Source: Rhizobium sp. BG4
GTDB lineage: Bacteria; Pseudomonadota; Alphaproteobacteria; Rhizobiales; Rhizobiaceae
Length of the DNA: 64,000 nucleotides
NCBI RefSeq assembly: GCF_016864575.1
Contig: NZ_CP044125.1
Location: 124,001-188,000 of the forward strand
Direction of reading: 5' to 3'
Each line of letters opens with the position of its first letter. The first letter of the stretch is position 1. The position numbers and the translations under genes are program-made. Under the pieces are notes generated by a model. The model made no database searches. It was not told where the DNA came from and saw only the letters and a list, made by a program, of their open reading frames with translations. Shown here piece by piece: positions 22,967 to 36,045 of the stretch.

Positions 22967-23437
22967 TCAATGATTGTTGGCTGCCGGCTCTTCGGCCGGC
23001 GGCAGCACCAGATCGGCATCGGCAACATAATTGCCGAGCAGCCAGAGCGAGACTTCGGACGCCTCCTTGGCGGAAACGAATTCGAAGGTGCCGTTCTGAT
23101 GCGGATGGTCGAGGAAATCGATCACCAATCCCTTGCCCGTTTCCGAGCTTGCAACACGGACCCTGCCCGGCTGAAGCACGTGGCAGGAGAAGTGGCGGTG
23201 CATGCTGCGCATGAAACCGGCCTTGTTGTCATGCAGGCGCACGAAGACCACCTGGCCGTCGGCCGTTGCCTGCAGCTGGCGGATCGCCTCGTGCGGGAAG
23301 GCGCGATTGAACTCGAGGATCGCCAGACCCATGTCGCGCAAACCCTCTTCATCGCGGTTCTGCGATGCCATCCGCGTCGCCACGAAGGCAAGGAGGAACA
23401 GGGCTGCGAAAATGACGATCCAGACGATGATGCTCAA
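22967..23437 (-). CDS. Membrane-anchored conserved hypothetical protein
   Basis: A 156-residue protein with one N-terminal helix (IIVWIVIFAALFLLAFVAT) and a soluble domain of mixed alpha/beta character containing several His residues (MRSMHRHFSCHVL, FLDHPHQ). No family with a known function was recognised. The start is a TTG at 23437 with GGAG seven bases upstream. It is tail to tail with trmFO and about 70 bases from the squalene synthase-like gene on the same strand. Confidence 0.68.
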   Translation of the reverse strand: MSIIVWIVIFAALFLLAFVATRMASQNRDEEGLRDMGLAILEFNRAFPHEAIRQLQATADGQVVFVRLHDNKAGFMRSMHRHFSCHVLQPGRVRVASSETGKGLVIDFLDHPHQNGTFEFVSAKEASEVSLWLLGNYVADADLVLPPAEEPAANNH

Positions 23438-23507: not shown

Positions 23508-24359
23508 TCAGATTTTCTTGCGCATCATCGCCATGGTCATGGCGAATTGGCGGCGCCATTGGGCGGATTGCAGCGGCTGGTCGAAGAGCCCTGCCCCTGC
23601 CTTCTGCGCCTTCTTCAGCACCGGCTCGGCGATCGTCGCCGGCAGGAAGGCCGGGAAGACGCTTGCCGGAAGCGTTGCCGCCCGTGCCTTAGCCAGATGA
23701 TCGCGGCCAAGACCGGCGAAGGCCTCGATGGCCGCCGAAATCCTTGCCTTGTCCTCGCCCGCAAGGAAGCTGTCGCGGTCGAGGCCGGTGGCGCTCAGGA
23801 TTTCAAGCGGGATATAGACCTGCCCGCGGTGGCGGTGCAGCGGCATCAACAGCAGCATGCCGGCGATCGCCTGCGCGACGCCTGCATGGCCTGCCGCATC
23901 GGCAGACTTCGCGGCATCCTCGGGCGACAGGACGAGGCTTGCTAGCTGGATCAGCGCCGAGGCGGTTTCGCCTGCATAGCCTTCCAGCGCACTGCGGCTT
24001 TCCATCGGATCGTCATAGAGATCGAAGATGCGCGCCTCGATCATGTTGATCAGCGTCTGGCGCGGCAGTCGGTGCGCCTCGATGGCGGTCAGCAGTTCGG
24101 CGGCAACCGGATTGGCTTCGGTCGAGCCATGGGCGCTGCCTTCGAGGAGGTCGCGCCAATATTGCATGCGCACTTCGCCTGGCAGCGGCTCATGGACGAG
24201 ATCGCGCACCTTGGCGAGTTCGGCATTGAAGGCATAGAGGGCAACGAGTGCGGCGCGCTTGTCCTCCGGCGACAGCAGGCTCGCGAGATAGCGGTCGCGA
24301 TCATTGTCGCGCAGCATCGCCAGGCAGATCTCCTGGTTTCCAGGCTTCGTCTCGGACAT
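23508..24359 (-). CDS. Squalene/phytoene synthase-fold protein, NDUFAF6-like
   Basis: A 283-residue all-helical protein of the trans-isoprenyl diphosphate synthase superfamily. The first Asp-rich region is partly kept (DLYDDPMES), but the second reads MLLLMPLHRHRGQVYIP, so the usual DxxxD of active squalene or phytoene synthases is missing. This agrees with the NDUFAF6 subgroup, a mitochondrial complex I assembly factor thought not to make isoprenoids. It starts two bases after the Mth938-like gene stop codon, downstream of secDF. A role in respiratory complex assembly is therefore more likely than carotenoid or hopanoid synthesis (inference). Confidence 0.85.
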   Translation of the reverse strand: MSETKPGNQEICLAMLRDNDRDRYLASLLSPEDKRAALVALYAFNAELAKVRDLVHEPLPGEVRMQYWRDLLEGSAHGSTEANPVAAELLTAIEAHRLPRQTLINMIEARIFDLYDDPMESRSALEGYAGETASALIQLASLVLSPEDAAKSADAAGHAGVAQAIAGMLLLMPLHRHRGQVYIPLEILSATGLDRDSFLAGEDKARISAAIEAFAGLGRDHLAKARAATLPASVFPAFLPATIAEPVLKKAQKAGAGLFDQPLQSAQWRRQFAMTMAMMRKKI

Positions 24360-24361
24360 GG

Positions 24362-24748
24362 TCAGACCGCGATCAATGCCGCTGCGACTGCGCGGGATTC
24401 GGCAAGCATGATGTTGTAGGTGCGAACCGCAGCGCCGGTGCTCATCGGATCCGACGAGATGCCTCGCGCCTTCAGTGCCTGCTTCAGTTCCGGCGGCAGG
24501 CGGCGAAGTTCCGTACCGGTGCCGACCAGCAGCACCTCGATATCGCCGGCTTCATCGAGAACCTTCGTGAAATTCTCGACCGACAGCGGCTTGGTCATAT
24601 CCATATCCCAGCCGTGGATGCCCGAGGGCAGGCACAGGATGGAGCCGCGATGCGACATGTCGGCGAAGCGGAAGCCGCCATTGCCATAGGTGTCGATGGG
24701 CGCGCGGCCCGGGAAATGGGCCTCGCGGATTTCGATGCCTTTTGCCAT
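24362..24748 (-). CDS. Mth938-like domain protein (DUF498), NDUFAF3-like
   Basis: A 128-residue protein of the Mth938/DUF498 fold (IEIREAHFPGRAPIDTYGNG, VENFTKVL, EVLLVGTGTELRRLPPEL). Eukaryotic relatives are NDUFAF3, an early complex I assembly factor. It lies between secDF and the NDUFAF6-like gene, overlapping neither but within five bases of each, so the three are surely co-transcribed. I choose the ATG at 24748; the frame runs upstream into secDF but without family resemblance. Confidence 0.87.
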   Translation of the reverse strand: MAKGIEIREAHFPGRAPIDTYGNGGFRFADMSHRGSILCLPSGIHGWDMDMTKPLSVENFTKVLDEAGDIEVLLVGTGTELRRLPPELKQALKARGISSDPMSTGAAVRTYNIMLAESRAVAAALIAV

Positions 24749-24752
24749 GATT

Positions 24753-27296
24753 TTAGACTGTGGCCTTTCCAGGTGTGCCGCCGGCCGTCTCGTTCTCATC
24801 CTCGTCGTCGTAGGATTTCGGGCGAAGCCTGAAGAGAATCAGGACCGGCGCAGCAATATAGATGGAGGAGAAGGTGCCGACGGCAACGCCAAAGAGCATC
24901 ACCAGCGCGAAGGGCCGGATCACCTCGCCGCCGAACAGCGTCAGCGCCAGGAGCGCGAGCAGCGTCGTTGCGGCCGTCAGGATGGTGCGCGACAGCGTCT
25001 GGTTGATCGAGGCGTCGATCAGGATCGGCAACGGCATGCGCGTATAGCGTTTCAGGTTTTCGCGCATGCGGTCGTATACGACGACGGTATCATTCAGCGA
25101 ATAGCCGACAATGACGAGCAGCGCCGCGATGCTGGTCAGATTGAACTCGATGCCGGTCACCACGAAGAAGCCGAGGGTCAGGATGACGTCGTGCAGTGTG
25201 GCGATGATCGCGCCGATCGCGAACTGCCACTCGAAGCGGATCCAGATATAGATCAGGATTGCCAGCAGCGACGCGAGAACGCCGAGCGTCGCGGTGCGAG
25301 CAAGCTCGCCCGACACGGCCGGGCCGACCACTTCCAAACGGCGGAAATCATACTCGTCCTGCAATTCGCTGCGCACCAGCGAGATCGCCGACTGCTCGGC
25401 ATTGTCGCCACCGCCCTGCGACTGCAGGCGGATCATGGCACTGGCCGGATCGCGCAGCCGCTTGACCTCGACATCGCCGAGATTGAGCTCGCTGAGACGC
25501 GAGCGGATATCGTCAGCATCGGCAGTACCGTCCTTCGAGCGGGCCTCGATCAGCGAGCCGCCGGTGAAGTCGACGCCGAGATGCATGCCTGCGGTCGCGA
25601 CACCCAGCATGCAGACGAGCGAGAGGGCTGCAAGCGCCGTGAAAGTGTAGCGGCGGATGCCGATGAACCGGACTGCGGTACCGTCGAAGACATCCGTATG
25701 GACGCTCTTCGGCAGGTGCCTCAAGCGGCGGCGGCGCACCCATGCCTCGACCAGTGGACGGGTGAAAAGGAATGCGGTGAAAGCCGTGGTGATGATCCCG
25801 GCCGCCAGCGTCACGGCAAAGCCGCGGATGGCGTCGCTGCCGAGATAGAAGAGGATGGCGGCGGCCACCAGCATGGTGATGCTGGCATCGACGACGGTCA
25901 TGAAGGCGCGCGAATAGCCGGCGGAAATGGCCTGATCCAGATGCAGGCCGGCCTTCAGCTCCTCGCGGATACGCTCATAGATCAGCACGCAGGCATCGAC
26001 GGCGATGCCGATCATCAGGACCATGCCCGCAAGGCCGGGCAGCGTCAGCGGCGCCCCGAAAACGGTGAGCACTGCGACGATCATCAAAAGGTTGACCAGC
26101 AGGGCAACGCTGGCGATGACGCCAAGCATGCCGTAGAGACCGATCATCAGCCCGGCCACCAGTACGGCGCCGATAATGCCGGCGATCAGGCCGGCATGGA
26201 TCGCATCACCGCTGAGGCCCGGATCGATCGTCCGCTCCTCGACGATGGTGAGCGCCGCAGGCAGAGGGCCGGAGCGCAGCATGGCGGCGAGGTCTTCGCT
26301 TTCGTCGGGCGAATAGTTCAGCGGAATGCGGCTACTGTCACCGACCGGCAGCTTGCTGAGCTCGGGTGCGGTCAGCACCTGATCGTCAAGCAGGATCGCC
26401 AGCGTGCGCCCGGCATTCTTCTCGACCAGATCGGTAAAGCGGCGCGAGCCGTCGAGATTGAAATTGAAGGTCAGGAAGGACGTATCCGGCGTCGGGCCTG
26501 GTTCGATGGCGAAATCGCCGAGATCGGACGCATGCAGCACTTCGGCCCGCTCAACGAGATAGGCGATCGGCGGGTCATCCTGCGAATAGACGATCTCGGA
26601 TCCGGGCGGCACGCTGCCGGCCATCGCATCCTGTGCGCTGACGCTCGAATCGACGAGGCGGAAGGTCAGCTTGCCCGGCTGGCTCAGCAGGTCCTTGAAA
26701 CGCTGCGGATCGCCGAGGCCCGGGATCTGGACGACCAGCCGGTCGCGGCCCGCCGGCGTGATGATGGGATCGATGCCGCCGGCTTCGATGGCGCGGTGCG
26801 CAACGATCGCGACCGAGCGCTCCAGCGCCGAGGCGAGCGTACGATCGATCGCCTTGTCGCTGATCTGCAGGTTGATCTGGCCGTCATTCGCCTTGGCAAT
26901 TGCGATATCGGGATCGGGAACGCCGCCCGCCGGCACGGCGAGCGGTGCGAGCAGAGACAACGCACGATCGGTCTGGGCGGCGTCGGTAATGCGGACCTGG
27001 ACCGTCTGAGCGTTTCCGGCAAGTCCGGTATAGCGGATATTGGCATCGCGCAGGCGCGTGCGGACGCTGGCAACGGTGCTCTCAAGCCGGCTCTGGACGA
27101 TATCGGCGCGGTCGATCTTGACGACGAGATAGGCGCCGCCCCTGAGATCGAGGCCCGGCGTCAGTGCCTTTTGCGGCAGCCATTGCGGCAGGGAAGCAAG
27201 TGTATTGGGGGAGAAAAGATTTGGCGCGGCGGCCAGTGCCGCCGCGACGATGGCAAACCAGATCAGAAGAGTTTTCCAAAGGGAAAATTGACGCAT
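24753..27296 (-). CDS. secDF: Fused protein-export membrane protein SecDF
   Basis: An 847-residue fusion of SecD (about 1-540) and SecF (about 545-830), the proton-driven accessory part of the Sec translocon. It has twelve predicted membrane helices, a large first periplasmic domain, the SecD signature (GLDLRGGAYLVV) and the SecF opening (GVDFTGGSLIEA). The fused form is normal in rhizobia. The gene follows yajC by 33 bases and precedes the two complex I-factor homologues, suggesting a membrane-insertion and assembly operon. Confidence 0.95.
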   Translation of the reverse strand: MRQFSLWKTLLIWFAIVAAALAAAPNLFSPNTLASLPQWLPQKALTPGLDLRGGAYLVVKIDRADIVQSRLESTVASVRTRLRDANIRYTGLAGNAQTVQVRITDAAQTDRALSLLAPLAVPAGGVPDPDIAIAKANDGQINLQISDKAIDRTLASALERSVAIVAHRAIEAGGIDPIITPAGRDRLVVQIPGLGDPQRFKDLLSQPGKLTFRLVDSSVSAQDAMAGSVPPGSEIVYSQDDPPIAYLVERAEVLHASDLGDFAIEPGPTPDTSFLTFNFNLDGSRRFTDLVEKNAGRTLAILLDDQVLTAPELSKLPVGDSSRIPLNYSPDESEDLAAMLRSGPLPAALTIVEERTIDPGLSGDAIHAGLIAGIIGAVLVAGLMIGLYGMLGVIASVALLVNLLMIVAVLTVFGAPLTLPGLAGMVLMIGIAVDACVLIYERIREELKAGLHLDQAISAGYSRAFMTVVDASITMLVAAAILFYLGSDAIRGFAVTLAAGIITTAFTAFLFTRPLVEAWVRRRRLRHLPKSVHTDVFDGTAVRFIGIRRYTFTALAALSLVCMLGVATAGMHLGVDFTGGSLIEARSKDGTADADDIRSRLSELNLGDVEVKRLRDPASAMIRLQSQGGGDNAEQSAISLVRSELQDEYDFRRLEVVGPAVSGELARTATLGVLASLLAILIYIWIRFEWQFAIGAIIATLHDVILTLGFFVVTGIEFNLTSIAALLVIVGYSLNDTVVVYDRMRENLKRYTRMPLPILIDASINQTLSRTILTAATTLLALLALTLFGGEVIRPFALVMLFGVAVGTFSSIYIAAPVLILFRLRPKSYDDEDENETAGGTPGKATV

Positions 27297-27329
27297 TCTG
27301 CCTTTCCGATCTGGCTGCCGAAAGCAATG

Positions 27330-27677
27330 TTATGCAGCGTCGGCCTTGACCGGCTCGCCCTTGACGCGAACATCGGCGATACCGCTGCGGACGACGCGAA
27401 CGCGTACGCCCTCAGCAATTTCCACTTCAACTTCCTTGTCGTCAACGACCTTCGTGACCTTGCCGACGAGACCACCGGCGGTAACGACCTGGTCGCCGCG
27501 GCGGATTGCGGAAAGCGTGTCGGCGCGCTTCTTGGCCTGGGCGCGCTGCGGACGGATCAGCAGGAAATACCAGACGACCATCAGCGGCACGAACAGGATG
27601 ATCATTTCGAAGCCGGAGCCGAATGGCGACGCGGCAGTATCCGTTGCGGCCTGGGCAAATGCCGGGGTGATGAACAT
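27330..27677 (-). CDS. yajC: Preprotein translocase subunit YajC
   Basis: A 115-residue single-span membrane protein. One hydrophobic helix (MIILFVPLMVVWYFLLI) is followed by RPQRAQAKKR and a small cytosolic domain with the family signature GDQVVTAGGLVGKV. It is a partner of SecDF and YidC. The ATG at 27677 has GAGGAG eight bases upstream; the frame continues upstream, but without homology or ribosome site. Confidence 0.95.
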   Translation of the reverse strand: MFITPAFAQAATDTAASPFGSGFEMIILFVPLMVVWYFLLIRPQRAQAKKRADTLSAIRRGDQVVTAGGLVGKVTKVVDDKEVEVEIAEGVRVRVVRSGIADVRVKGEPVKADAA

Positions 27678-27886
27678 TGATAAACTCCTCAGCTGCGGGC
27701 GGCGAAATTCCGCCTCTCTTTTCAGTGGCCGGACTATAGTTGCGGTAAGAACGAATGCAACAAAAACAGCCGTGAGGCGTACCGAATCCGCTGCCTGATA
27801 ACCTTTCGGCTGTGGAAAGGCCATGCTACCCCGCCACGAAGGACGACAGGCGGTCTCCGGCCGCACGAAATTCAGGAGGACATCGC

Positions 27887-28757
27887 ATGACTGACGAGAT
27901 CAACAGCGTCATTCTGCAGGAGCTCAAGAAGCTGACGGCGGCGTCGAACGGCTGGCCGGTCCGCCACCGGCGGTCAATGACTGGACGGCGGCAGACTGTT
28001 TCGTCTGGTCGCCCGCCCGCCAGCATCTGCAACCCGTCGCGCGGCCGAACCGCGTGGCGCTGAAGCTGATCCGTGGCGTCGATCATGTCCGCGACATCCT
28101 GCACGAGAACACCGTGCGCTTCGCCGACGGTTTCCCCGCCAATAACGTGCTTCTCTGGGCGCGCGGGGCATGGGCAAGTCGTCGCTCGTCAAGGCGGTCC
28201 ATGAAGATGTCCGCCGTGAAAGCGGTGTGTCGCTGAAGCTCGTCGAGGTTCACCGCGAAGATATTGCCAGCCTGCCCGCCCTGCTCGACCTGATGAAGGA
28301 TGTGCCGCACCGGATCATCGTGTTCTGCGACGACCTCTCCTTCGATCATGACGATACCGCCTACAAGTCGCTGAAGGCAGCGCTCGACGGCGGTGTCGAG
28401 GGGCGGCCGGACAATGTGCTGTTCTACGCGACCTCGAACCGCCGCCACCTTCTGCCGCGCCATATGATGGAGAACGAGCAGTCGACGGCGATCAACCCGT
28501 CGGAAGCGGTCGAGGAGAAGGTCTCGCTGTCTGATCGCTTCGGCCTATGGCTCGGCTTCCACAAGTGCAGCCAGGAAGATTACCTGACAATGATCGACGG
28601 CTATGCCGATCACTTCAAGCTGCCGCTCGAGCGCGAGAAGCTGCATGCCGAGGCGCTGGAATGGGCGACGACCCGCGGCGCCCGCTCCGGCCGTGTTGCC
28701 TGGCAATACGTGCAGGACCTCGCCGGGCGCATGCGTATCAACCTCGCCCGCGATTGA
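27887..28757 (+). pseudogene. DUF815 AAA-type ATPase gene with two frameshifts
   Basis: The three frames joined give a normal DUF815 ATPase of about 290 residues. The N-terminus (MTDEINSVILQELKKLTAA) reads in one frame to about 27941. A one-base loss (likely a G in GGCGGCGTCG) shifts the next part (NVLLW and upstream) to a second frame. A second one-base loss near 28157 (TGGGCGCG for TGGGGCGCG) shifts the rest to a third. The second break falls in the Walker A region, which would read GARGMGKSS if repaired; the remainder (IIVFCDDLSFDHDD Walker B, then YATSNRRHL) is intact to the TGA at 28757. The ATG follows AGGAGGA. Either a pseudogene or two sequence errors. Confidence 0.8.
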
Positions 28758-30602: not shown

Positions 30603-31256
30603 TCAGAGCTGCGAAGCGAGCCGCGGAACGATGGGCAGGTAGGGAACGGTGAAGAGCTCTTCGCGCTCGAAGCGGCTGCCGGTCTTCGTCAGACGCACCA
30701 TCCGGCACTCGTCATCCGAGATCATCAGCGGCGCGATCATGGAGCCGCCGGAGACCAGCTGGTCGGTGTAGAATCGCGGCATGGAGGCGAAAGCGGCGGT
30801 GACGAGAATACGGTCGAAGGTGCCCTCGCCCTGCAGGCCGTTGCTGCCATCGGCCTGGCGGACGATAATGTTGCGCAGGCTGAGCTGGTCCATGCGCTTC
30901 TGCGCGTTGACGACCAGCGTCTTGTAGCGGTCGATCGTCAGAACGCGCTCGGCCATGCGGCCCATGACGGCGGCCATGAAGCCGCTGCCCGTGCCAACTT
31001 CGAGCACGCGCTGGCCCGGCTTGACCTTCAGGTGATGCAGGATGCGGACGGCTGTATCGACACCTTCAACGAACGAACCGCATTCGATCGGGATCGTCCG
31101 CGTCGAATAGGCGTCTTCAGTAAATTGCGGCGGTACGAAGAGCGAGCGCGGCGTCTGCTCGACTGCGGTCAGCAGATCGATGTCGGAAATGCCTTCGGCG
31201 CGCAGCCGCAATACGAGGGCCGCAAAACCTTCCTTCTCGACCAGCCGTGCTGACAA
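30603..31256 (-). CDS. pcm: Protein-L-isoaspartate O-methyltransferase
   Basis: A 217-residue S-adenosylmethionine-dependent enzyme that repairs isoaspartyl residues in aged proteins. Motif I is VLEVGTGSGFMAAVMG, and the family region IECGSFVEGVDTAVRIL (here in place of the usual TISQPY) precedes it. The start is probably TTG at 31256, eight bases after the surE stop codon, with only a weak ribosome site, which suggests coupling to surE. The surE-pcm-nlpD order is conserved in many proteobacteria. Confidence 0.92.
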   Translation of the reverse strand: MSARLVEKEGFAALVLRLRAEGISDIDLLTAVEQTPRSLFVPPQFTEDAYSTRTIPIECGSFVEGVDTAVRILHHLKVKPGQRVLEVGTGSGFMAAVMGRMAERVLTIDRYKTLVVNAQKRMDQLSLRNIIVRQADGSNGLQGEGTFDRILVTAAFASMPRFYTDQLVSGGSMIAPLMISDDECRMVRLTKTGSRFEREELFTVPYLPIVPRLASQL

Positions 31257-31263
31257 TGCCTGA

Positions 31264-32031
31264 TTACTCCGTACCTGAAAGCGCCCGCTCCACGCGGTCC
31301 TTCACGGAATAATCGGTCAAATCCAGTTTCAAAGGTGTTACCGAAATCTTATTATGCTTCAAAGCGTGGATATCGGTGCCTGCGGCAAAGGCGCCGGCGC
31401 GCTCGCCGAACTTCAGCCAGTAATAGGGAAAGCCGCGGCCATCCGAGCGCGCATCGACCTGCAGGTTGAAGGCGAGCTTGCCCTGAGCGGTGACCTCGAC
31501 GCCATCGACGTCATCCGGACGGCAGTTCGGGAAGTTGAGGTTCAGGAACGTGCCTTCGGGCAGATCGACCTTCATCAGCTTTTCGAGAAGTGCCGGCGCA
31601 TGCGCCTCGCAGACTTCCCAAGGGACGATCCGCGCGCCATCGGCATAGACATAGGCCTGGCTCAACGCGAAGGAGCGCACGCCCTGCATCGTGCCTTCGA
31701 TGGCGCCGGCGATGGTGCCGGAATAAGTCACATCGTCGGCGACATTCGAGCCGGAATTGACGCCTGACAGGATCAGGTCCGGCTTGATGTCCATGACCTG
31801 CTTGACGCCCATGATGACGCAATCGGTCGAGGTGCCGCGCAGGGCGAAATGTTTGTCGGAGACCTTGCGCAGCCTGAGCGGCTCGGAGAGGCTCAGCGAA
31901 TGCGCCAGGCCGCTCTGGTCCGTTTCGGGTGCAACGATCCAGACGTCGTCGGACAGAGTGCGCGCAATCCGCTCAAGTGCTGCGAGGCCTTCGGCATGAA
32001 TGCCATCGTCATTGGTGAGCAGAATGCGCAT
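31264..32031 (-). CDS. surE: 5'/3'-nucleotidase SurE
   Basis: A 255-residue metal-dependent nucleoside monophosphate phosphatase. The N-terminus [16 protein letters not shown] carries the metal-binding DD pair, and [19 protein letters not shown] is the second conserved site. It follows serS by four bases and is co-transcribed with pcm and the nlpD-type gene. Confidence 0.96.
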
Positions 32032-32035
32032 CTCT

Positions 32036-33319
32036 TCAAGCCGCCCGTTCGATCTTCTTCAAACCGCCCATATAGGGCAGCAGCACGTCCGGAATAGTCA
32101 CCGAGCCGTCTTCGTTCAGGTAGTTCTCCAGAACGGCGATCAGGCAACGGCCGACGGCGGTGCCAGAGCCGTTCAGCGTGTGAACGAACTTCGTGCCCTT
32201 TTCGCCCTTGGCGCGGTAGCGGGCATCCATGCGGCGGCCCTGGAAATCGCCGCAGACCGAGCAGGACGAGATTTCGCGGAAGGTGTTCTGGCCGGGAAGC
32301 CAGACTTCCAGATCGTAGGTCTTGCGAGCGCCGAAGCCCATGTCGCCGGTGCAGAGCGTCATGGTGCGGAAATGCAGGCCGAGGCGCTTCAGAACCTCTT
32401 CCGCACAGGCCGTCATCCGCTCATGCTCGGCGACCGCGCTTTCGGCGTCGGTGATCGAGACGAGTTCGCACTTCCAGAACTGGTGCTGGCGCAGCATGCC
32501 GCGGGTATCGCGACCGGCCGAACCGGCTTCCGAGCGGAAAGACGGGGTCAGCGCGGTGAAGCGCAGCGGCAGCTTTTCCTGCTCGAGGATTTCGGCCGAA
32601 ACCAGATTGGTCAGCGTCACCTCGGCGGTCGGGATCAGCCAGCGGCCATCCGTCGTCTTGAAGAGGTCGTCGGCGAATTTCGGCAGCTGGCCGGTGCCGA
32701 ACATCGCCTCATCGCGCACCATCAGCGGCGACGAGACTTCGGTATAGCCGTGCTCGCCGGTGTGCAGGTCGATCATGAACTGGCCGAGCGCCCGCTCGAG
32801 ACGGGCAAGCGGGCCGGTCAGCACGGTAAAGCGCGAACCCGACAGCTTGGTGGCGCGGTCGAAATCCATGTAGCCGAGGGATTCGCCGATTTCGAAATGC
32901 TCTTTCGGCGCATGGTTCCAGCGCGGCTTTTCGCCGATCGTGCGGGTGACGACATTGCCGCTCTCGTCGGCGCCGACAGGAACGTCGTCGAACGGCACGT
33001 TCGGGATACGCGACAGCACATCGTTGAGTTCGGCGCTAAGCTGGCGCTCCTCCTCTTCGGCGGCGGGCAACGTCACCTTGATGTCGGCGACTTCGGCCTT
33101 CAGCTTTTCGGCGAGCTCGCTGTTCTTCTGCGCCATCGCCGCACCGATCTCCTTGGAGGCGGCGTTCCGGCGCGACAGCAGGTCCTGCGCCTTCTGCACG
33201 GCGGAGCGGCGCTTTTCATCGAGGGCGACGAGGGACTGGGCCAAAGCCTCCGCACCACGCTTTGCAAGCGCGGCGTCGAGCGCCTCGGGGTTCTCACGGA
33301 TCCATTTGATATCAAGCAT
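32036..33319 (-). CDS. serS: Seryl-tRNA synthetase
   Basis: A 427-residue class II aminoacyl-tRNA synthetase. The N-terminal coiled-coil arm (about 30-105) contacts tRNA-Ser; motif 2 ([20 protein letters not shown]) and motif 3 ([18 protein letters not shown]) form the active site. I take the ATG at 33319 ([14 protein letters not shown]), the conserved family start; the frame upstream is unrelated. It lies downstream of tatC in the same block. Confidence 0.96.
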
Positions 33320-33416
33320 TGTCGTTCCGGGTCGTTGCAAAACAGGAACCGGCCGAAGCCTGACCTGGCTGCGGCCGGAAGATACGGAAGCGTATGGGAA
33401 GAGATTGCGAAGCCGC

Positions 33417-34244
33417 TCAGACGCTGTCCGTGTTGGCAACGTCCGCGGATCGTTCCGCCTCTTCGACCGCCTGCCGCGCACGCTGGCGCTCGACGAGTCG
33501 AGCCGCGTGGATGGCAATCTCGTAGAGAAGGATCGTCGGCAGTGCAAGACCGATCTGGGACATCGGATCGGGCGGCGTCAGCACGGCTGCGACGATGAAG
33601 GCCATGACGATGGCGAACTTGCGCTTCTCGGCAAGCCATGCGGACGTCAGCAGGCCGACACGGGCAAGCAGCGTGGTGATGACGGGAAGCTGGAAGACGA
33701 GACCGAACGACAGCACCAGCGTCATGATCAGGCTCAGATATTCCGAGACCTTTGGCAGCAGCGAGATGGCGACATCGCCATGACCCGGCGTCTGCTGCAT
33801 GGCCAGGAAGAACCACATGACCATCGGCGTGAAGAAGAAATAGACGAGAGCCGCGCCGAGCAGGAAGAGGATCGGCGATGCGATCAGGAACGGCAGGAAG
33901 GCCGCGCGTTCGTTCTTGTAGAGGCCGGGGGCCACGAACTTGTAAATCTGTGCCGCGATGATCGGGAAAGCGATCACCACGCCGCCGAACATCGCCACCT
34001 TCACCTGCGTGAAGAAGAATTCCTGCGGGGCGGTATAGATCAGCTGTGCCTTGTCGACATCCATGCCCGCCCAGGTGACGGCGAGCTTGTAGGGGTAGAC
34101 GAGGTAGTTGAAGAGATGCTTTGCAAAGAAGAAGCAGACGATGAAGGCGATGAAGAACGCGCCGATCGACCACATCAGCCGCCTGCGCAGCTCCATGAGG
34201 TGCTCGATCAACGGCTGCGGCTTGTCTTCAATATCACCGCTCAT
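33417..34244 (-). CDS. tatC: Sec-independent translocase subunit TatC
   Basis: A 275-residue membrane protein with six helices, the twin-arginine signal receptor. The N-terminal [16 protein letters not shown] and the [10 protein letters not shown] segment are diagnostic. Its ATG overlaps the tatB stop codon (34241-34244), indicating coupled translation. Confidence 0.96.
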
Positions 34245-34897
34245 GCCTCATCCTTTTTCTTTGCTGCTGCCTTCTTCGGGGCAGCTGCGACCTTCTTTGC
34301 AGGCGCAGCCGTCTTTGCTGCTGCCGTCTTAGCCGGTGCAGCCTTAGCTGAAGGCACAGCGGCTACGGCCTTTGCTGCGGGCGCGCGCTTTGCCTTGGCC
34401 GCGGGAGCGGCAGCCACAGGCTCGGCCTTTGCCTCAGCGGCGGCGCGCGGCTTGCGCACGGCCTTCGGCTTTTCAGCAACGACAGGCGCAGCAACCGGTT
34501 CGGCTGCGGGTGCCGGCGCAACGACCGGAGGCGTCTCCGGCAGGCTCATCGAGGGAGCCGGCACGCTGACCGGCACCTCGGTCTTGTTGTCGGCCTTCGT
34601 TGCGTTCTGAAGGTCGGCCTTGATGTCGTTGCCCATCTGGCGCAGCGGGTTCATCGCGTCGCGCAGCGTATTGGCGGGGTTGAGACGCTGGGCGTCGGCG
34701 AGCGTCTGGCGCACCTCGTCGAGATCGGCCTCACGCAGCGCCTCGTCGAATTGCGCACGGAATTCACCGGCAACCTTCTTGGCGCGCTGCGTCATCTTAC
34801 CGAACGCACGCAACATCGGCGGCAGATCCTTCGGACCTACCACCACAATCAACACGACCGCGATGACAAGCAGCTCGGTCCAGCCAATATCGAACAT
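34241..34897 (-). CDS. tatB: Sec-independent translocase subunit TatB
   Basis: A 218-residue protein with one N-terminal helix and the TatB signature FDIGWTELLVIAVVLIVVVG, GPKDLP, followed by an amphipathic helix. The C-terminal half is a long Ala/Pro/Lys-rich, probably disordered tail (repeated APAKKVAAAPKKAAAKKK-type units) that is longer than in E. coli. It overlaps tatC by four bases. Confidence 0.94.
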   Translation of the reverse strand: MFDIGWTELLVIAVVLIVVVGPKDLPPMLRAFGKMTQRAKKVAGEFRAQFDEALREADLDEVRQTLADAQRLNPANTLRDAMNPLRQMGNDIKADLQNATKADNKTEVPVSVPAPSMSLPETPPVVAPAPAAEPVAAPVVAEKPKAVRKPRAAAEAKAEPVAAAPAAKAKRAPAAKAVAAVPSAKAAPAKTAAAKTAAPAKKVAAAPKKAAAKKKDEA

Positions 34898-34946
34898 TCA
34901 AGGCTCCTGGAGGGGAAGCGGGGCAAGCCACCCGTCCCCGGACTGA

Positions 34947-35141
34947 TTACTTCGTTTCGTCGGCCTTGTGATCGACGGTCTTCGACGCCGTTTCCGGCGC
35001 GTCTTCGTCGTTCATGCCCTTCTTGAAGCTCTTGATGCCCTTGGCAACGTCGCCCATCAGCTCCGGAATCTTTCCGCGGCCGAACAACAACAGCACGATG
35101 ACCAGGACGATCAGCCAGTGCCACATGCTAAAAGAACCCAT
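34947..35141 (-). CDS. tatA: Sec-independent translocase subunit TatA
   Basis: A 64-residue pore-forming Tat subunit. The N-terminal helix [19 protein letters not shown] is followed by the TatA amphipathic helix ([18 protein letters not shown]). The ATG at 35141 has AGGGAG eight bases upstream; the open frame further upstream is not part of the family. Confidence 0.95.
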
Positions 35142-35328
35142 TACGCATACTCCCTGTTGCGATGTCTCTTCGATGTAAGAGTTTCCGACATCGTTTCCAA
35201 CATCAAAATTCCCCTTATATTGACGCTTAATGTCACGGCTTTGACCTTTGTGACAAGCCACCGCGCCATCGAATTGTGGTGATGAGTATTGTTTTCGCCC
35301 TCAGTGGCAAAACAAAGACCAGCCGGTG

Positions 35329-36045
35329 CTAATCTTCCGATGCGCCACCCGGCGCAAGAAGCCCCAATTCCTCAAGATCCATCTGGGTGATCGGATCTTC
35401 GTCCTCGGTCAGCTCGTCGTTCATCGACGGCGACGGGATGTTGAAATTGGCCGGGATGCGGCCGGAGAGCAGCCCTGCCCCCTTGAGCTCTTCAATACCA
35501 GGCAGATCGCGCAGTTCCTCAAGGCCGAAATGGTCGAGAAAATCGCGGGTGGTGCCGAGTGTTACGGGGCGGCCGGGCGTGCGGCGGCGGCCGCGGAAAC
35601 GCACCCAACCGGCCTCCATGAGAACGTCGAGCGTGCCGCGCGAGGTCTGCACGCCTCTGATGTCTTCAATCTCTGCACGCGTCACCGGCTGGTGATAGGC
35701 GATGATCGCCAGCACTTCGAGAGCAGCGCGCGAAAGCTTCTTCGTTTCATTCTCATCACGGCGGATCACAAATGAGAGATCGGCGGCCGTGCGGAACGCC
35801 CAGGCGTCATCCACCTGCACCAGATTGACGCCGCGCGGCGCATATTGCTCCTTCAAGCGGAGCATGATGGTGTGGACATTGAAATGCTTGGCGATGCGAT
35901 CGGCAATGAAGGCTTCGGAGACCGGCTGCGCCGAGGCGAAGACCAGTGCCTCGGCGATGCGTTCGGCCTCAAGCTCTGCCTGGAAGTCCTGGCTTTCGGC
36001 GCCCTCGCCTTGCTCCGCGCCGATATCGTCGTCAGGATCGATCAC
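35329..36045 (-). CDS. scpB: Segregation and condensation protein B
   Basis: A 238-residue winged-helix protein that with ScpA forms the kleisin complex of the SMC condensin. Diagnostic blocks are EALVFASAQPVSE, ALEVLAIIAYHQPVTRAEIE and LGTTRDFLDHFGLEEL. The GTG start at 36045 overlaps the scpA stop codon, so the two are co-translated. A 187-base gap separates it from tatA and may hold the tat promoter. Confidence 0.93.
   Translation of the reverse strand: MIDPDDDIGAEQGEGAESQDFQAELEAERIAEALVFASAQPVSEAFIADRIAKHFNVHTIMLRLKEQYAPRGVNLVQVDDAWAFRTAADLSFVIRRDENETKKLSRAALEVLAIIAYHQPVTRAEIEDIRGVQTSRGTLDVLMEAGWVRFRGRRRTPGRPVTLGTTRDFLDHFGLEELRDLPGIEELKGAGLLSGRIPANFNIPSPSMNDELTEDEDPITQMDLEELGLLAPGGASED

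Follow-up and report, generated by a model that had tools for sequence, protein, structure and literature searches.

The window, a 64,000-nucleotide stretch of the Rhizobium sp. BG4 genome (6.42 Mb, 3 contigs), carries a compact reverse-strand operon composed of yajC, a fused secDF gene, a DUF498/Mth938 gene and a gene for a protein with a squalene/phytoene-synthase fold (Table 1). We refer to the DUF498 protein as AF3-like and to the squalene-synthase-fold protein as AF6-like, labels for presumed counterparts of NDUFAF3 and NDUFAF6 that we assume from general knowledge and PMC8007014 rather than from human sequences. An earlier note on this DNA had named these four genes and had the last two following secDF within five bases and two bases, and both descriptions are accurate: all four genes lie on the reverse strand with families above the Pfam cut-offs, and the intergenic gaps are 33 nt between yajC and secDF, 4 nt between secDF and DUF498, and 2 nt between DUF498 and the AF6-like gene. 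YajC and SecDF also pass their curated models (TIGR00739, 78.6 bits against a cut-off of 44.2; TIGR01129, 415.4 against 244.4; TIGR00966, 370.5 against 160), and the window SecDF narrowly misses the fused-form model NF011315 (1231.6 vs 1249). A second SecDF-like protein is encoded elsewhere in the same genome (C1:1224866-1226308, 948-aa open frame). A promoter scan found neither a sigma-70-like site nor an informative terminator.

Table 1. Positions in the window of the operon genes and neighboring features
Feature	Position	Strand	Evidence or context
yajC, 115 aa, Sec accessory subunit	27330-27677	-	PF02699, 90.5 bits (cut-off 28.2)
secDF, SecD and SecF fused, 847 aa	24753-27296	-	TIGR01129 and TIGR00966 above cut-offs
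DUF498/Mth938 protein (NDUFAF3-like), 128 aa	24362-24748	-	PF04430, 106.2 bits (cut-off 33)
Squalene/phytoene-synthase-fold protein (NDUFAF6-like), 283 aa, without either Asp-rich motif	23508-24359	-	PF00494, 180 bits (cut-off 26)
Candidate last operon gene, 156 aa, TTG start	22967-23437	-	70 nt past the AF6-like gene
DUF815 ATPase gene	27887-28757	+	Divergent, adjoins yajC; two frames meeting at about 28158-28167
pcm, surE, serS, tatC, tatB, scpB	30603-36045	-	Upstream row, a few kb from the operon
996-aa open frame	24690-27680	+	Antisense to secDF

The 156-aa gene is a possible last gene of the operon. Its product has an N-terminal stretch that is hydrophobic by eye and matches no family in Pfam or NCBIfam, and homologs occur in 41 of the 80 named loci, a single one of the 136 class loci (a set that includes the window's own stretch, L137) and none of 40 loci from family f23; all three sets are described below. 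On the other side of the operon, the DUF815 gene was aligned with four relatives, and its split into two frames is a frameshift that reflects either faulty assembly or a gene that is broken; DUF815 matches recur in 96 of the 136 class loci, 35 of the 40 f23 loci and 72 of the 80 named loci. The row from pcm to scpB means that the operon's surroundings include export genes, among them Tat genes, and protein-quality genes. The long frame antisense to secDF looks like an artifact of a kind seen opposite other genes as well in this G+C-rich DNA.

The AF6-like protein carries the profile and the predicted all-helical synthase fold of PF00494 homologs and lacks the two Asp-rich Mg-diphosphate motifs of a working squalene or phytoene synthase. 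In alignment with catalytic squalene-synthase homologs, the first motif D-D-x-x-D is replaced by A-K-V-R-D and the second motif D...D by L...H, and both Asp-rich motifs are thus lost in the window protein. The earlier note had reported loss of the second motif, which is correct but too mild since the first is gone as well. A synthase fold without DxxxD motifs is also the definition of the NDUFAF6 group in the available text of PMC8007014, and the window protein has this combination. An AlphaFold2 model built on an alignment of named relatives reached pLDDT 95.5 and pTM 0.93, and among Foldseek's own matches the closest solved structures are CrtM-like, CrtM and HpnC proteins (Z 23.5-28.2), including the CrtM-like 8isa (Z 28.2, 270 residues, rmsd 2.5, 17% identity). 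A profile search of the PDB returned synthases and two carbazole prenyl transferases, and at 87 bits the window protein stays below the equivalog cut-off of 278.6 for HpnD (TIGR03465, NCBIfam).

Motif loss extends well beyond the window. A tree of 103 rows separates 49 AF6-type rows from 54 other rows by one branch with an SH-aLRT of 100; this is a quick-method tree in which 99 rows are distinct, the window copy appears twice and 41 of 96 inner forks are open. Because all AF6-type rows fall together across a single well-supported branch, catalysis was probably lost once. Residues D20, R64, W68, D113 and P184 are invariant among 57 AF6-like sequences, and RLQWWR at R64-R69 is nearly so. Sequence conservation of this kind suggests that the remodeled protein has been under selection ever since catalysis was lost. 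With both motifs gone, it is probably a pseudo-enzyme and not an isoprenoid enzyme. We accordingly rejected an isoprenoid enzyme in the operon, as both metal-binding motifs are gone, and the earlier note's view that the protein does not act in isoprenoid synthesis is probably right, given that both motifs are lost throughout a well-supported clade that keeps other invariant residues. A role as a non-enzymatic biogenesis factor is well supported.

HpnC- or HpnD-like genes in which the first Asp motif is intact neighbor the AF3-like gene in 18 class loci (L003, L004, L019, L025, L026, L027, L034, L042, L053, L074, L079, L082, L083, L089, L102, L105, L107 and L124), 17 of which also carry the AF6-like gene, L019 alone being without it. 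These neighbors may hint that the AF6-like gene arose by tandem duplication. They also bear on the idea that the AF6-like protein still binds, senses or converts an isoprenoid such as a quinone tail or a hopanoid precursor through a divergent mechanism, as does the full synthase fold, which the model predicts to be kept with high confidence. We consider this idea improbable, since both metal-binding motifs are lost across the AF6-type clade and many AF6-like carriers have separate synthases with intact motifs among the matches listed.

The AF3-like protein belongs to a family with several solved structures. The window protein matches 2fi9 over its full length (E 4.2e-51), and further matches are 2fvt, 2gm2, 2k2e, 3cpk and 2ab1, of which 2ab1 (C11orf67, E 1.4e-5) is the sole solved DUF498 chain without a bacterial label. 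The deposited molecule names read 'Outer membrane protein' for 2fi9 and hypothetical or uncharacterized for the rest. Among 14 control genomes, DUF498 occurs in Caulobacter vibrioides, Thermus composti and Methanosarcina acetivorans (two over the cut-off), and E. coli is without it.

To place the operon in its wider context, we analyzed a class sample of 241 alphaproteobacterial genomes from 191 genera. DUF498 is present in 134 of these genomes, and up to 6 kb per side was fetched around each copy to give 136 loci, two genomes having a second copy; fragment DUF498 matches at G149:C434 and G064:C17 lie outside this set. One locus (L093, from G189), which has a stop in frame on a 3.5 kb contig and in which the script found no AF3-like match, was not counted, leaving 135 loci. 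In 131 of the 135, yajC and/or secD/secF lie upstream on the same strand (yajC in 128; secD or secF in 128), and the four exceptions are the loci of the two f43 genomes and the additional copies in G014 and G053. This linkage of Sec genes and the AF3-like gene is far above chance. In 89 of the 135 loci, an AF6-like gene without the catalytic motif is found on the same strand at most 6 kb downstream, and its domain-to-domain gap is at most 300 nt in only 15 loci and at most 1500 nt in 55, with varied genes in between. By eye, a superoxide dismutase gene in the opposite orientation was seen repeatedly in the interval that separates the AF6-like gene from the AF3-like gene or from yajC (L022, L074, L096, L003 and f23 loci).

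A second set, collected by way of the AF6-like protein, comprised the best 80 of over 580 named loci; all are near the window protein, and their titles are from Hyphomicrobiales except for one labeled only Alphaproteobacteria. The AF3-like gene lies upstream of the AF6-like gene in 79 of these best 80, and in all but 2 of the 79 the domains are no more than 231 nt apart; the closest of the 80 are Neorhizobium and Rhizobium loci with about 69% identity in the AF6-like protein. Taken with the spacing in the class loci, these counts indicate that the link between the AF3-like and Sec genes is class-wide, and that tight coupling of AF3-like and AF6-like genes is a trait of the taxonomic order to which the window belongs.

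The pair also occurs in clusters that lack SecDF. In 8 of the 80 named loci, Neorhizobium tomejilense and further close relatives among them, the stretch from yajC to the AF3-like gene yielded no SecD/SecF, and the same holds for the cluster in 3 class loci of family f33; two such clusters, L272 and L047, were read in detail. In the genomes checked (three of the eight named and the three of f33), one SecDF is encoded elsewhere. The AF3-like and AF6-like pair thus follows yajC even without SecDF, and a strict link to SecDF was rejected on the same 8 named and 3 class loci. The earlier note had tied the pair to membrane insertion of respiratory subunits: an evolutionary link of both proteins and the Sec genes is real, and the link to SecDF is weaker than that note assumed.

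Co-occurrence in the class sample connects the two genes to one another and, more loosely, to complex I. PF00346, the NuoD family, served as the proxy for complex I and is present in 219 of 241 genomes among the matches listed; this family also covers hydrogenase-like relatives, and NuoD counts are therefore upper bounds. An AF6-like gene was called at 128 bits or more, with three in-locus cases added at 118-120 bits (G071, G055 and G058) and four weak in-locus cases left out (G093, G100, G181 and G188). On this basis, and among the matches listed, the AF6-like gene occurs in 115 of 134 genomes with the AF3-like gene vs 16 of 107 genomes without it, and NuoD is present in 133 of 134 AF3-like genomes and 130 of 131 AF6-like genomes. 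The sole exception for both is G189, a genome 93% complete in about 450 contigs. Conversely, up to 70 of the 219 NuoD genomes carry neither one under these thresholds and among the matches listed, an upper bound because the weak cases were left out and diverged copies may be missed. PF00346 is also found in 11 of 14 control genomes, E. coli included, among the matches listed.

Genome size and ancestry confound the association of both genes with NuoD. Size strata cover 239 of 241 genomes, with the NuoD-less G229 and G237 outside, and 19 of 20 NuoD-less genomes with known size are at most 2.0 Mb among the matches listed, so that the small-genome class is the sole class with enough NuoD-less genomes. 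Within it, the AF3-like gene is present in 11 of 66 genomes with NuoD vs 0 of 19 without (p 0.11) and the AF6-like gene in 5 of 66 vs 0 of 19 (p 0.58), neither difference being significant among the matches listed.

Family f23, which we infer to consist of relatives of acetic-acid bacteria, allowed comparison of two types of complex I in 90 genomes sampled one per genus. NuoD and NuoH scores in f23 form two classes among the matches listed, the gap being narrow for NuoH. The lower class is a fused NuoCD, with a NuoC domain in frame in 9 of 9 NuoCD-only genomes and 3 of 3 tested genomes with both types, and the upper, mitochondrial-type class has no NuoC part in 7 of 7 NuoD frames read. Among the matches listed, 74 genomes have mitochondrial-type complex I, 9 the NuoCD type only, 6 none and 1 (G313) paralogs only; G264 was assigned to the mitochondrial type from a NuoH fragment with a NuoI-like frame (by eye) behind it, and G257 and G261 from NuoH. 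The AF6-like gene is present in 70 of the 74 mitochondrial-type genomes, in 0 of the 9 NuoCD-only genomes and in 0 of the 6 without complex I among the matches listed, the 70 comprising 61 at 127 bits or more and 9 recognized by motif, broader profile or position beside yajC. For each of the 15 negative genomes the top synthase-like match was read, and it retains DD-x-x-D; most of the weaker matches lie outside this reading.

Exceptions occur in both directions. G313 has an AF6-like gene and yet only paralogs of NuoD and NuoH among the matches listed, and four genera with mitochondrial-type complex I are without an intact recognizable AF6-like gene (G257 and G265, which are fragmented, G296 and G307). 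In G307, which has mitochondrial-type complex I, a copy near yajC is broken by stops (C1:289821-290127, L241). Six genomes have both complex I types by NuoD or NuoH (G277, G294, G305, G315, G323 and G261), and all six carry the AF6-like gene. DUF498 exceeds its cut-off in only 2 of the 90 f23 genomes although 74 have mitochondrial-type complex I, and complex I in this family therefore manages without DUF498. Taken with the NuoD genomes of the class sample that have neither gene, this argues against an obligate role of the pair in complex I, and neither protein is universally required for complex I among bacteria. The f23 AF6-like gene often lies near yajC, with SecD/SecF absent from the stretch seen, and all 15 sampled AF6-like-negative members retain yajC.

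The f23 contrast reduces to one evolutionary event. In an RpoB tree of 29 f23 genomes, the 15 negatives all fall to the same side of one branch (SH-aLRT 96), with one change of complex I state and two of AF6-like state. Its genomes were chosen and not random: every one of the 15 genomes that lack the mitochondrial type, plus 15 that have it (AF6-like doubtful or positive), of which G275 gave no RpoB. The tree supports a single co-loss, which is suggestive and no test, and counting 0 of 15 vs 70 of 74 as fifteen independent cases was rejected for this reason. The role in complex I proposed in the earlier note is compatible with the data, as the genes are almost confined to NuoD genomes and absent from the 15 negative f23 genomes among the matches listed; what weakens it is that the f23 contrast is one tree event and the small-genome class shows no significant association. 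These same two weaknesses would be expected if the linkage were a frozen ancestral gene order with no functional meaning and the presence pattern tracked genome size and ancestry. We regard frozen order as very unlikely, because the AF3-like gene keeps its yajC/sec neighbors in nearly every class locus across many families, and the AF6-like gene is kept even when it lies elsewhere in the genome, for example in G146, G138 and G137.

The f23 pattern predicts that the AF6-like factor serves the mitochondrial-type and not the NuoCD-type enzyme. A specific form of this prediction, which we put forward tentatively and would not expect to hold in full, is that the AF6-like pseudo-synthase is a dedicated factor for mitochondrial-type complex I in free-living alphaproteobacteria, unused by the E. 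coli-like fused-NuoCD enzyme and lost together with the mitochondrial-type enzyme in one lineage, where the NuoCD type was kept, gained or lacking. DUF498 would then be optional, and neither protein would need SecDF next door.

A broader role could explain much of the same material. The pair may consist of general helpers of Sec/YidC membrane insertion that act in substrate release or quality control for many inner-membrane proteins, with complex I as the main client only in mitochondria. The most constant neighbors are indeed yajC and secDF, in a locus search that left nuo genes outside its scope, many complex I genomes do without the pair among the matches listed, and export and protein-quality genes (pcm, surE, serS, tatC, tatB and scpB) stand a few kb upstream in the window. 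Against this, the pair persists in the eight named relatives and three f33 genomes whose cluster lacks SecD/SecF, E. coli matches YajC and SecD/SecF and not DUF498, and one f23 clade lost the AF6-like gene while all 15 sampled members keep yajC. General helpers seem to us a possible explanation, and a doubtful one.

We favor a model to which we give an even chance of being correct. The cluster is an instance of an old alphaproteobacterial gene order, yajC-secD-secF-DUF498-(pseudo)squalene synthase, whose AF6-like and DUF498 products would assemble mitochondrial-type complex I near the Sec/YidC exit. The AF6-like protein would act at the inner membrane near this exit as a non-catalytic helical scaffold and, with the DUF498 protein where present, would receive newly inserted membrane subunits, for which NuoH/ND1 is the best guess from mitochondrial work. 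The received subunits would then be joined to quinone-module subunits of mitochondrial-type complex I, and relatives of this cluster are the presumed source of mitochondrial NDUFAF3 and NDUFAF6. By analogy with mitochondria, we infer that the two proteins may be specific for complex I. In the available text of PMC8007014, NDUFAF6 and its orthologs lack DxxxD motifs and human NDUFAF6 works through ND1 biogenesis; a table in the accessible part of PMC4992684 sets NDUFS2, NDUFS3, NDUFS7 and ND6 against NDUFAF3; and co-evolution of NDUFAF3, C8orf38 and C2orf56 is described in the portion of PMC3436739 at hand. Literature listings, together with passages of PMC3436739, PMC8007014, PMC10910544, PMC7050145 and PMC4992684, showed no bacterial experiment or mutant on either protein and no report of the bacterial linkage.

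If the pair does build complex I, Paracoccus and Rhodobacter, which combine easy genetics with a mitochondria-like complex I, would offer a test bench for NDUFAF3 and NDUFAF6. For both of these human disease genes, the mechanism at the molecular level is still unsettled.

Comparison with known systems separates what is shared from what is added here. Saada et al. 2009 (AJHG 84:718) reportedly used gene conservation to tie NDUFAF3 to a bacterial SecF/SecD/YajC cluster and to C8ORF38 (NDUFAF6), and its genes, its linkage and its inference to complex I assembly are reportedly the same as ours, so the linkage is not new. Relative to that account of gene conservation, the present analysis counts the order in 135 and 80 loci and tests the AF6-like motifs, and the SecDF-free clusters and the comparison of two complex I types are additions. 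Human NDUFAF6 and Candida albicans NDU1 share with the window protein a squalene/phytoene-synthase fold in which both DxxxD motifs are absent, as given in the available text of PMC8007014, and the motif loss is thus already published. In that same partial text these proteins are mitochondrial and tested in complex I assembly, whereas the bacterial protein sits in a Sec operon and is known from sequence, and the tree presented there holds four bacterial sequences. HpnC, HpnD and CrtM have the fold (Z 23.5-28.2) and PF00494 in common with the window protein and differ in the Asp-rich motifs that it lacks. The solved DUF498/Mth938 proteins (2fi9, 2fvt, 2gm2, 2k2e, 3cpk and 2ab1) have the same domain as the window DUF498 protein, under printed names that give no tested function. 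Measured against these sources, several of them partial texts, three points may be new: the form of the cluster without SecDF, the almost complete lack of the AF3-like gene in f23, and the way the AF6-like gene goes with a single type of complex I.
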